Below are positions 30,040 through 33,159 of a stretch of 64,000 bases of DNA, piece by piece. The notes beneath the pieces are model-generated. The model saw nothing but the letters and a program-made list of their open reading frames with translations, was not told the DNA's origin and did not search any database. Source of the stretch: Gemmatimonadaceae bacterium (lineage in GTDB: Bacteria > Gemmatimonadota > Gemmatimonadetes > Gemmatimonadales > Gemmatimonadaceae); contig JAHBVT010000001.1 in NCBI GenBank assembly GCA_019637355.1, positions 2,015,192 to 2,079,191 on the forward strand, written 5' to 3'. Made by a program: the position numbers and the translations under genes. Within the stretch, counting starts at the first letter, position 1, and each line of letters begins with the position of its first letter.

Positions 30040-30875
30040 GTGGCGCCGGGGTGCGCGCGCGCGACGCTCTGCATCATCGCCAACAGGTGCCCGATGTGCT
30101 CGGTATGCCGGCCGCGGCGCCCGCCCAACTGCATCGGCGCGTCGGCGGGCTTCGTCAGCGTCGCACGCGTGAGCACGTCGTCCACCATCGTGTCCCAGCG
30201 CGACTTGATGCCGGCGACGTCCACGCGCACACCCTCCGCCGCTACAGCCTCGTCCACCGCATCAGGGGTGAAGAGCTCACCCGTGTACTTCCAGAGCCGG
30301 TCCAGCGACGCCTGGATGCGCCGGTGGCTCTCTTCCGTACCGTCACCGAGGCGCAGCACCCATTCACTCGAGTGGCGCAGGTGATACTTGGACTCCTTGA
30401 GTGCCTTGGCGGCGATGGCCGCAAGCCCGGTGTGCCCGCAGCGGCTGAGTTCGTCGAGCAGCAACACGCTGTATGCGTCGAACAGGAACTGCCGCAGCAT
30501 CGTGTCGCCGAAATCGCCGCGTGGCAGCTCGACGAGCAGGCAATTGCGAAACTGCGTGCCGTCGCGGAAGTAGGCGAGGGCGTCCTCGCTGCGGCCCTTC
30601 CCCTCGACCTCGCCAGCCAGCTTGAGCAACTGCGCCGCCTGCCCGATGAGATCCAGCGCGATGTTGGCCGTCGCGATGTCTTCCTCGAGGATGGGGCCGT
30701 GCCCCGTCCACTCGGACATTCGGTGCCCGAGGATTAGGCGGTCGTCGCCGAGCCGGAGCAGGTACTCGACCATCGGCGCCGCGAACGCCGGACCGCGCGC
30801 GCCGGCCACCTTGACCGTCCCGGCTGTCGCCTCTCCGGCGGCAATGCCACCCGCGTCTCCCTCGTGATTGGCCAT
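30033..30875 (-). CDS. paaC: PaaC: structural subunit of phenylacetyl-CoA 1,2-epoxidase
   Basis: A 280-residue ferritin-like helical protein. The first ~30 residues are a low-complexity Ala/Gly-rich extension. The core starts at EYLLRLGDDRLILGHRMSEWTGHGPILEEDIA and continues with NIALDLIGQA, FRNCLLVELPRGDFGDTMLRQFLFDAY, ESKYHLRHSSEWVLRLGDGTEESHRR and MQLGGRRGRHTEHIGHLLAMMQ, all PaaC hallmarks. PaaC is catalytically inactive and scaffolds PaaA. The start codon shares one base with the paaB stop (TGATG). Confidence 0.93.
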   Translation of the reverse strand: MANHEGDAGGIAAGEATAGTVKVAGARGPAFAAPMVEYLLRLGDDRLILGHRMSEWTGHGPILEEDIATANIALDLIGQAAQLLKLAGEVEGKGRSEDALAYFRDGTQFRNCLLVELPRGDFGDTMLRQFLFDAYSVLLLDELSRCGHTGLAAIAAKALKESKYHLRHSSEWVLRLGDGTEESHRRIQASLDRLWKYTGELFTPDAVDEAVAAEGVRVDVAGIKSRWDTMVDDVLTRATLTKPADAPMQLGGRRGRHTEHIGHLLAMMQSVARAHPGATW

Positions 30876-31165
30876 CAAAAGACGCGCACGCCTTGCGGCA
30901 CCTTGTAGAACTGCGGGTGCCGGTAGGCCTTCTCGTTGCCGGGCTCGAAGAAGGGCCCCGCGTCCGACGGCGCCGACGCCACGATCGCCGCCGACGGCAC
31001 CACCCACAGGTTCACCGCCTCGCCGCGGCGCGTGTACACGTCGCGGGCATTCTGCAGCGCGTGCTCCGCGTCTGTCGCGTGCAGGGAGCCGGCGTGCTCG
31101 AATGGCTCCCCCTGGTTCCCTTGGGTGAACACTTCCCACAATGGCCAGGATTGTTCGTTGCTCAT
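30875..31165 (-). CDS. paaB: PaaB: phenylacetyl-CoA epoxidase subunit
   Basis: A 96-residue protein with the whole PaaB pattern: WPLWEVFTQGNQGEPFEHAGSLHA, AEHALQNARDVYTRRGE, VNLWVVPSAAI. PaaB bridges PaaAC heterodimers in the epoxidase. It is separated from paaA by 219 bases that hold a MITE-like element, which is unusual because paaAB are normally tightly packed. A 13-base palindrome, GATCGG-T-CCGATC (31167-31179), abuts the start codon and could be a regulatory site or part of a new promoter. Confidence 0.93.
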   Translation of the reverse strand: MSNEQSWPLWEVFTQGNQGEPFEHAGSLHATDAEHALQNARDVYTRRGEAVNLWVVPSAAIVASAPSDAGPFFEPGNEKAYRHPQFYKVPQGVRVF

Positions 31166-31201
31166 AGATCGGTCCGATCAGAAAGTGTATGACAACGGCC
31201 T

Positions 31202-31367
31202 TTCACCACAGAGGACACAGAGCACTGCAAGGACAGAATCCTCTGTTTGGGGCAACGCTCGAACGGTTCGGCTCGCGCCAACTAGATGGGCAGTAGAAGT
31301 TGCAGCAGAGGTTGCAGTTGTCATTGCAGCTGCCGTTCTCTGTGCCCTCTGTGTCCTCTGTGGTGAA
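31202..31367. mobile_element. MITE-like element with 21-bp terminal inverted repeats between paaA and paaB
   Basis: TTCACCACAGAGGACACAGAG-type arms at 31202-31222 and 31347-31367 are exact reverse complements (21 bases). Between them lies a ~124-base core with no gene but with further CTCTGTG/CACAGAG fragments. The element is less GC-rich than its surroundings and interrupts the spacing of an operon that is compact elsewhere. Sequences built on CACAGAGGACACAGAG are, to my knowledge, scattered in many environmental bacterial genomes. No target-site duplication was obvious. Confidence 0.6.
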
Positions 31368-31384
31368 CGTCGTTGCTGTTGCCC

Positions 31385-32347
31385 CTACGCCGCCGAAGAC
31401 CTGGCCGCCCGCTTCGCCGCGTGCGCCAGCGCCGCCTCCCGTACCCAGCGTCCTTCCTCGTGTGCCTGGTTCCGCGCCGCCAGCCGCTCGGCGTTGCACG
31501 GCCCGTTGCCCTTCACCACATTCCAGAACTCCGCCCAGTCGATCTCCCCGAACTCCCAGTTCTTGGTCTCGGCGTCGTAGCGGAGATCCGGATCCGGCAG
31601 CGTCACCCCGATCGCCTGCGCCTGCGGCACCGTCAGGTTCACGAAGCGCTGCCGCAGCTCGTCGTTGGTCTTCCGCTTCACGCGCCACTTGAGCAGCTCG
31701 GCCGAGTTCGGGCTGTCCTTGTCACTCGGCCCGAACATCATCAGCGACGGCCACCAGAAGCGGTTGACGGCATCCTGCAGCATCTCGCGCTGCGCCGGCG
31801 TGCCCTTGGCCAGCGTCGCGCAGATTTCATAGCCCTGGCGCTTGTGGAAGTTCTCTTCCTTGCAGATGCGCACCATCGCCCGCGCATACGGGCCGTAGGA
31901 GGCCTTGGCCAGCACCGTCTGGTTGACGATCGCGGCCCCGTCCACGAACCAGCCGATGACGCCCATATCAGCCCAGCTCAGCGTCGGGTAGTTGAAGATG
32001 CTCGAATACTTCGCCGTGCCGTCCAGCAGTTGGTTGTAGAGGTCGTGGCGGTCGACGCCGAGCGTCTCGGTGCCGCAGTAGATGTACAGCCCGTGCCCAG
32101 CCTCGTCCTGCACCTTGGCGATCAGCGACATCTTCCGCCGCAGCGAGGGCGCGCGCGTGATCCAGTTGCCCTCCGGCAGCATCCCCACGATCTCCGAGTG
32201 CGCGTGCTGCGCCATCATCCGCGTCAGTTGCTTGCGGTAGCGCTCGGGCATCCAGTCCTTGGGCTCGATGCTCTCGCCGCCGGCGATGCGCGCCTCGAAG
32301 GCGGCAAGGAGGGCCGGATCCTCCTGCGGGGCAGTCGTCTGGGCCAT
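31385..32347 (-). CDS. paaA: PaaA: catalytic subunit of phenylacetyl-CoA 1,2-epoxidase
   Basis: A 320-residue di-iron oxygenase subunit. The iron ligands are recognisable in [28 protein letters not shown] (EAGH) and [14 protein letters not shown] (ExxFH). MKxx-like [11 protein letters not shown] and [16 protein letters not shown]-type segments also match the family. It inserts one oxygen atom into the ring of phenylacetyl-CoA. The reductase PaaE is not encoded nearby. The ATG lies six bases after TAAATT, suggesting leaderless transcription, and the gene is divergent from a crotonase gene. Confidence 0.95.
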
Positions 32348-32353
32348 ACGCGG

Positions 32354-32363
32354 AATTTAGTAT
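32354..32363. promoter_or_regulatory. overlapping divergent -10 boxes for paaA and the crotonase gene
   Basis: AATTTAGTAT provides TAAATT on the minus strand, six bases before the paaA ATG, and TAGTAT (32358-32363) on the plus strand, ten bases before the ATG at 32374. The two boxes share bases, so the two genes compete for one short promoter. No Shine-Dalgarno precedes either start. Confidence 0.5.
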
Positions 32364-32373
32364 GTTTCCCGCT

Positions 32374-33159
32374 ATGACGCCCCCCGCCCCCACCCCAGAT
32401 GTCCGCGCCGAAGGCCGTGTCCAGGTGTCCGTCACCGACGGCATCGGCACGGTCGAGTTCTTCCACCCCAAGGGCAACTCCCTCCCGGGCATCCTGCTCC
32501 GTCAGCTCGCCGACGGCATCCGCACGCTCGGCGACGACCCAGCCGCGCGGGTGATCGTGCTGCGCTCCGGCGGCGAGGGCGCCTTCTGTGCCGGTGCCTC
32601 CTTCGACGAGTTCACCGCAGTCTCCACGCCGGCGGAGGGCAAGGAGTTCTTCCTCGGCTTCAGCCGCGTCATCCTCGCGATGATCCGCGCGCCGAAGTTC
32701 GTAATCACCCGCGTCCACGGCAGAGCCGCCGGTGGCGCGATCGGCGTCATCGCCGCCAGCGACTACTCCTTCGCCACCGAGAACGCGCAGGCTAAGCTCT
32801 CCGAACTGCAAGTGGGCATCGGGCCGTTCATCGTTGGCGTCGCCATCGAGCGGAAGCTGGGCCTCGCCCCGTTTATGAATCTCGCCGTGCACGCCGACTG
32901 GCACGACGCCGCCTGGTGCGAGCGCCACGGGCTGTACTCGCAGGTGGTGGATAATGCGCACGCGCTCGATGCCGTCGTGCACAGCCACGCCCAGCGCCTC
33001 GCGGCTGCAAACCCCGAGGCGATGGCCGAGATGAAGCGCGTGTTCTGGCGCGACACCGAGCACTGGGAGGCGCTGATGGACGATCGCGCCGCGATGAGCG
33101 GACGGATGGTCCTGAGCGACTTCACCAAGGCCGCGCTGGCAGCGTTTAAGGCACGCTAA
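32374..33159 (+). CDS. enoyl-CoA hydratase/isomerase family protein linked to paa genes
   Basis: A 261-residue crotonase. It has EGAFCAGASFDEF (oxyanion hole), RVHGRAAGGAIGV, ENAQAKLSELQVGIGPF, and a conserved end SGRMVLSDFTKAALAAFK. At the position of the first catalytic Glu of classical hydratases there is no acid, while the second Glu (SEL) is kept. Proteins of this subtype, as I recall, accompany paa genes in Bacteroidota. It could take the place of PaaF, the 2,3-dehydroadipyl-CoA hydratase, which is otherwise missing here, but chemistry is unproven. An ATG four codons upstream (32362) is also in frame, but it overlaps the -10 box. Confidence 0.85.
   Translation: MTPPAPTPDVRAEGRVQVSVTDGIGTVEFFHPKGNSLPGILLRQLADGIRTLGDDPAARVIVLRSGGEGAFCAGASFDEFTAVSTPAEGKEFFLGFSRVILAMIRAPKFVITRVHGRAAGGAIGVIAASDYSFATENAQAKLSELQVGIGPFIVGVAIERKLGLAPFMNLAVHADWHDAAWCERHGLYSQVVDNAHALDAVVHSHAQRLAAANPEAMAEMKRVFWRDTEHWEALMDDRAAMSGRMVLSDFTKAALAAFKAR

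Follow-up and report, generated by a model that had tools for sequence, protein, structure and literature searches.

What is a block of inverted repeats doing between two genes of one operon, and what could have brought it there? The window, by which we mean the whole stretch of 64,000 nt that was analysed, belongs to the genome of a Gemmatimonadaceae bacterium (3.15 Mb, three contigs; G000 below, with G002, G003, G007, G011, G015 and G016 as congeners). Its paaB-paaA intergenic gap is exactly 31166-31384. An inverted-repeat search returned one pair, 31202-31222 and 31347-31367, whose 21-nt arms are 100% complementary and 124 nt apart. The element that they bound, 31202-31367, is the 166-bp block with exact inverted ends that a sequence-only reading of this DNA had described, and the overlap which that reading saw among the remaining genes of the operon is also real: paaC begins before paaB has ended, and its own end is overlapped by the paaD frame. 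The motif CACAGAGGACACAGAG has three matches in the window at up to three mismatches, where 0.43 would be expected by chance on average, and all three are inside the element (Table 1).

Table 1. Features at the paaA-paaB junction, in window coordinates
Feature	Position	Strand	Basis
paaB, downstream of the element	30875..31165	-	TIGR02157, 8.5e-33
Outer end motif AACGGC (AACNGC)	31194..31199	+	Hexamer recurs in most of the 26 genome copies, 1-2 nt beyond the TIR
Left TIR TTCACCACAGAGGACACAGAG, two CACAGAG units, 9-bp period	31202..31222	+	Inverted-repeat and genome-wide pattern searches
Degenerate central hairpin TTTGGGG...CGAACGGTTCG...	31246..31284		Counterpart of the TTGGGGGTCCGCACCGA-N-TCGGTGCGGACCCCCAA stem (comparison of G000 copies)
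Right TIR, three CACAGAG units on the minus strand	31338..31367	-	Outer 21 nt perfectly complementary to the left arm
Outer end motif AACGAC (AACNGC-like), paaA side	31369..31374	-	Read from the sequence
paaA, upstream of the element	31385..32347	-	TIGR02156, 3.4e-153

The RNA of the gap folds to -92 kcal/mol (z = -5.4), so that a folded transcript across the junction is plausible. It is possible that the RNA hairpin of the element alters the PaaA:PaaB ratio, a putative effect. The sequence-only reading had offered either a hairpin or a promoter of the element's own; the former gains from the folding energy, and the latter is unsupported, as a promoter scan of 30800-32400, a weak test in this phylum, found no sigma-70-like site. 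The same scan gave one terminator-like site where 0.8 would be expected, and Rfam returned no match at E <= 1 for 31000-31600. An intergenic, strongly folding element might serve the paa operon as a conserved regulatory region, and among the 16 genomes of the genus with paaB, G000 counted, the junction is occupied in four. G000 and G015 have a full element there, and G011 and G007 a single arm; in G015, G011 and G007, too, the insert comes after the paaA stop codon. However, the junction is empty in the other 12, the four occupants differ in sequence, and the same repeat stands behind dozens of unrelated genes, so that a regulatory region of this operon is scarcely credible. The sequence-only reading had taken an element unique in its genome and present at the same site in all relatives as the sign of such a region; the empty junctions and about 26 copies in G000 contradict it on both counts.

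The genome-wide counts of these repeats come from pattern searches. The arm 21-mer, at up to three mismatches, has 25 forward and 25 reverse matches in G000 and none with a reversed-pattern control, a copy number far beyond chance. The matches resolve to 24 inverted pairs of 63-485 bp and two single arms, the pairs jointly making up 0.17% of the genome. Non-coding copies measure 63-321 bp, with TIRs of about 21 bp, and have in common the AACNGC end motifs, CACAGAG arms at a 9-bp period and a central stem of TTGGGGGTCCGCACCGA/TCGGTGCGGACCCCCAA. The term MITE-like, which the sequence-only reading had used, is apt, because the copies share ends, spacers and central hairpin and their ends also flank a larger coding element. 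One side of the central stem has 17 exact matches in G000, and 14 of them lie within 11 different elements, which indicates that the relationship among copies at non-homologous sites is not limited to their ends. A comparison of G016 with G003 at one site (D) had hinted that the arms had enclosed a native terminator, the central hairpin; we rejected this idea because the core is mostly element-borne, as the 14 of 17 half-sites show. The half-site of the hairpin, as GGGGGTCC(G/A)CGCCGA, is also present three times in G000 at a 376-bp spacing (C1:2539143, 2539519 and 2539895) with no arm found nearby, perhaps as a tandem repeat.

Many copies have a second, inner shell of CGCAGAG units. At L031, L033, L039, L046 and other loci of G000, CACAGAG lies outside, CGCAGAG inside and the core hairpin innermost, as if older dialects of the repeat were retained within newer ones. 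CACGGAG and CACGAAG shells are interlaced at L203 in G011.

At 25 of the 26 elements in G000, at least one neighbouring gene, with its stop no more than 400 bp away, reads into the element, and a stop codon precedes 20 of 50 ends at a distance of 5-7 bp. For loci outside the genus, the stop-codon count (41 of 90 ends within 15 nt) was close to that of a gene-start control (35 of 87). The placement in G000, the terminator-like central hairpins of many elements and the re-occupation of orthologous sites by different dialects would all suit host-selected 3'-end structures (mRNA stabilisers or terminators working in both directions) whose concerted evolution is due to gene conversion, with the nuclease introduced below maintaining or converting them and transposing nothing. 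Several observations speak against this explanation, which we consider unlikely, though not negligible. Most congeners have no such inverted pairs in comparison with the 24 pairs and two single arms of G000, so that copy number goes from zero to dozens within the genus, and orthologous sites are often empty. Moreover, the core hairpin of G000 is common to non-homologous sites, and the window copy is located within an operon and has a degenerate core. Inspection by eye of the 26 G000 copies and of empty and filled site pairs revealed no consistent direct repeat as a target-site duplication; the ends abut stop codons.

Seven of 20 elements examined in G011 are at sites orthologous to G000 elements. 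At seven orthologous sites compared among the congeners, each genome has its own arms and different interiors, or no element. The positions are thus shared while the occupants differ, which argues for hotspot insertion or concerted replacement and not for simple inheritance; different dialects at the same sites could reflect hotspots or concerted evolution instead of transposition. At one shared site (L261), G014 has a CACCGAG dialect. An insert of about 1.1 kb lies within a CACGAAG element at L213 (G011:C1:1139500-1142200), where G002 has a short element; the translation of the insert by eye resembles an IS630-type transposase, and the insert is probably an IS within the element.

The sequence-only reading knew of no mechanism by which such repeats spread. 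A strong candidate enzyme has now been identified inside the longest inverted pair of G000. This 485-bp element (C1:2757039-2757523), which separates lpd from a dehydrogenase E2 gene (both named by eye from the adjacent DNA), contains the only GxxExxY gene of the genome (C1:2757134-2757463, 120-aa product). It has the same TIR, AACNGC spacer and TTGGGGG/CCCCCAA borders as the short copies, with the gene replacing the core, and between its arms there is the GxxExxY frame only and no Cas1-type integrase. GxxExxY is the only protein of the repeat system found so far. The G000 protein is a full member of both TIGR04256 (137.2 bits against a cut-off of 35, E 2.9e-40) and PF13366 (135.3 bits against 22, E 1.6e-39), the GxxExxY or PDDEXK_3 family, for which we know of no assigned function. 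In GxxExxY open frames (L057-L069), the upstream part is often the translated left arm (for example FTTEGTEN, PQRHRDTEG, FTRKTRKTRK), and annotated starts may hence be too far upstream.

Alignments revealed that the GxxExxY motif and the catalytic D...ExK...QxxxY motif are conserved in the G000 protein and its relatives, and a regular expression of the catalytic motif matches 80 of 83 GxxExxY proteins. The AF2 model of a relative (pLDDT 96.9) has its best fold match in SSO0001 (Z 9.7), which we take to be a Cas4-family nuclease, followed by Holliday-junction resolvases, Cas4 and related nucleases (Hjc, Z 6.9; Cas4 Pcal_0546, Z 6.6), with Foldseek E-values that are weak. A family-profile sequence search of solved structures returned no relative (best E 0.91). 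From the modelled fold, GxxExxY is predicted to be a Cas4-like PD-(D/E)XK nuclease with a restriction-endonuclease-like fold. Such a fold, together with weak PADLOC matches to Cas4 (E 0.015), might point to a defence or toxin-like nuclease whose flanking repeats are autoregulatory or self-marking and whose dispersed copies are by-products. However, no PADLOC model matched at a meaningful score and no PHROG matched GxxExxY, and a defence or toxin role gives no reason for dozens of matching copies beside unrelated housekeeping genes. We therefore regard it as very improbable.

The association of GxxExxY with repeats is not confined to the genus. A scan of one genome per species gave 80 GxxExxY loci from many bacterial phyla and archaea, to which three viral contigs were added, making 83. 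In a pattern-free test that counted flanking inverted repeats scoring at least 13, with control windows from the same loci, such a repeat surrounded 63 of the 83 genes as opposed to 5 of 486 control windows (Fisher p ~1e-59); about a quarter of the genes had no clear flanking repeat. Most arms are iterated CRCNRAG 7-mers with an 8- or 9-bp period (CACAGAG, CACGGAG, CACGAAG, CGCAAAG and similar), and the density of two-unit repeats falls 21-fold, from 3.16 per kb at up to 400 bp from the gene to 0.15 per kb at more than 700 bp. Even far from the gene, the units match the gene-TIR unit of their own locus more often than shuffled ones do (0.30 versus 0.135; 33 loci), and none of 5000 shuffles reached as high a value. 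Three-unit patterns beyond the genus have a genome-specific spacing of 1+2, 2+2 or 1+1. The GxxExxY protein tree mixes phyla, with 39 label changes where 15 is the minimum possible, a weak result from few columns. Divergent GxxExxY proteins (L063 in G032, L069 in G019, L075 in G017, L158 and L159) are flanked by the iterated inverted repeats GACAGGATGACAGGA, ACGCGGAAA, ATCCGGAGCATC and AATGAAACGAA, which suggests that further repeat classes may exist.

Within the genus, the dialects of dispersed repeats differ between genomes. Two-unit counts for CACAGAG, CACGGAG and CACGAAG, respectively, were 50/0/0 in G000, 72/0/0 in G016, 0/33/9 in G002, 0/27/0 in G015 and 0/3/101 in G011, and in all five the dialect agrees with the TIRs at the genome's own GxxExxY gene. 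The match is imperfect in G002, G007 and G015, and the CACAGAG pattern, which demands a 9-bp period, undercounts the copies with an 8-bp period in G015 and G007. G003 has a GxxExxY gene without TIRs, in which the Q of QxxxY is replaced by R, and no dispersed copies by any pattern tried. The gene occupies one of two chromosomal sites in the congeners, L057, L058, L065 and L067 (G011, G002, G007 and G015) or L055, L059 and L071 (G000, G016 and G003). Each of the two sites looks vertically inherited, while the flanking arms vary by genome.

Across 395 Gemmatimonadota, GxxExxY is present in 21 of 27 repeat-rich genomes and in 113 of the 368 others (Fisher p = 1.7e-6, for genomes that are not phylogenetically independent). 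A loose search without a positive control did not detect it in the six remaining repeat-rich genomes (G014, G058, G196, G233, G258 and G391). Gene loss or incomplete MAGs could explain these genomes, which are the main gap in the case. The linkage of GxxExxY with the repeats is strongly supported, and we conclude that the two form a cognate pair. Since the family is flanked by similar repeats in matching dialects across bacteria and archaea, the whole looks like a widespread mobile-repeat system whose enzyme had escaped recognition.

It could be argued that the elements are ordinary MITEs, moved by a DDE or HUH/RAYT transposase encoded elsewhere, and that GxxExxY is a passenger or a frequent neighbour. 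Their anatomy is indeed of the MITE type, with TIRs, lengths of 60-320 bp, many copies and no ORF in the short ones, and one G011 element encloses the IS630-type-like insert seen by eye at L213. The 485-bp element, which has the same TIRs and subterminal sequence, would then take the place of the coding relative and is a candidate autonomous partner. Yet it holds a GxxExxY gene and no DDE transposase gene, no clear target-site duplication was seen, and the arms consist of iterated units. The IS630-like insert occurs in that one G011 element only, and the HUH/RAYT transposase (PF01797) had no match in G000, G011 or G015 and was not found in 15 of the 19 genomes tested in all. Furthermore, the association with GxxExxY persists across bacterial phyla and archaea while the dialect changes, which is unexpected of a passenger. 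Taken with the single gene between the arms in G000, this makes the passenger explanation quite unlikely. Casposons are also TIR-bounded mobile DNA of bacteria and archaea and can encode a Cas4-like nuclease. They are kilobases long, with a Cas1 integrase and usually a DNA polymerase, whereas the coding element here is a 485-bp TIR-bounded unit with a Cas4-like nuclease and no Cas1.

The nearest system in organisation is REPIN/RAYT, which fails on the defining enzyme. REPINs are short inverted-repeat doublets between genes, each class being tied to the repeats that flank a mostly single-copy gene; RAYT paralogues in one genome carry different flanking repeats, and the repeat flanking a gene can switch dialect, an 'orthoswitch' (PMC3116915, PMC3686654, PMC8266576). 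In G000, too, 24 inverted pairs are dispersed in extragenic space, nearly all the elements lie behind at least one gene, and the gene of the presumed enzyme, here GxxExxY instead of RAYT, lies between cognate repeats. REPs remain in some genomes after the loss of RAYT (PMC3686654), to which the six repeat-rich genomes without GxxExxY are a parallel. RAYTs are single-copy and apparently incapable of mobilising themselves (PMC3116915). Likewise, GxxExxY copies within one genome are mostly strongly diverged or cannot be aligned by blastn, apart from a near-identical pair at contig ends in G246, so that the coding element is not visibly jumping. The eight GxxExxY records from plasmids are diverged, and none has a near-identical counterpart that lacks the element. 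The differences from REPIN/RAYT are that the predicted Cas4-like PD-(D/E)XK nuclease is not an HUH tyrosine (Y1) transposase of PF01797, that the arms are iterated 7-mers and not GTAG-tagged palindromes, and that the elements often exceed REPINs in size and have a central hairpin inside nested arm shells. The nuclease-repeat pair probably serves mobilisation in the manner of REPIN/RAYT, with an unrelated enzyme. In the literature covered, outside which lay preprints and subscription papers, GxxExxY is mentioned by two papers only, both times in passing, no paper links GxxExxY or PF13366 to repeats, and the repeat in the present sense was not found. The link of the family to flanking cognate repeats is what is new here.

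We thus consider it likely that the element in the window, palindromic and REPIN/MITE-like, is a non-autonomous repeat, that its arms are the recognition ends of the GxxExxY system and that the nuclease mobilises it. The intact catalytic motif and the fold suggest that GxxExxY would be the catalyst, and its mobilising role we infer from arms and core shared by many copies, arms around the gene across phyla, matching dialects, and occupied and empty sites. In the proposed mechanism, the nuclease would recognise and cut at the arms cognate to it, which probably form a hairpin or cruciform. The base of a cruciform is a four-way junction, and Hjc-like folds are among the structural matches. Cutting would allow short derivatives to be copied elsewhere in the genome, for the most part directly after stop codons, or existing elements to be replaced. 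Once drift has changed the arms at the nuclease gene, the new dialect would also replace the old one in the dispersed copies. More tentatively, and with slightly less than even confidence, we propose that a widespread class of mobile DNA, undescribed so far, has GxxExxY as its only dedicated enzyme. Its TIR-nuclease-TIR units of less than 500 bp would be among the smallest possibly autonomous elements, and their palindromic derivatives would be copied behind stop codons. Nuclease and dialect would co-diversify, and older arm shells nested in younger ones would record past dialects.

Repeats of the CACAGAG, CACGGAG and CACGAAG types occur in many environmental genomes, but no engine had been assigned to them, nor had a role been assigned to GxxExxY, a nuclease family of wide distribution. 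Linking the two gives both a testable function, and natural matched and mismatched enzyme-substrate pairs are available for a specificity assay. If the proposed link is true, the odd N-terminal peptides of GxxExxY open frames would be explained as the translated left arm, and an enzyme very different from RAYT would be shown to sustain intragenomic populations of repeats.
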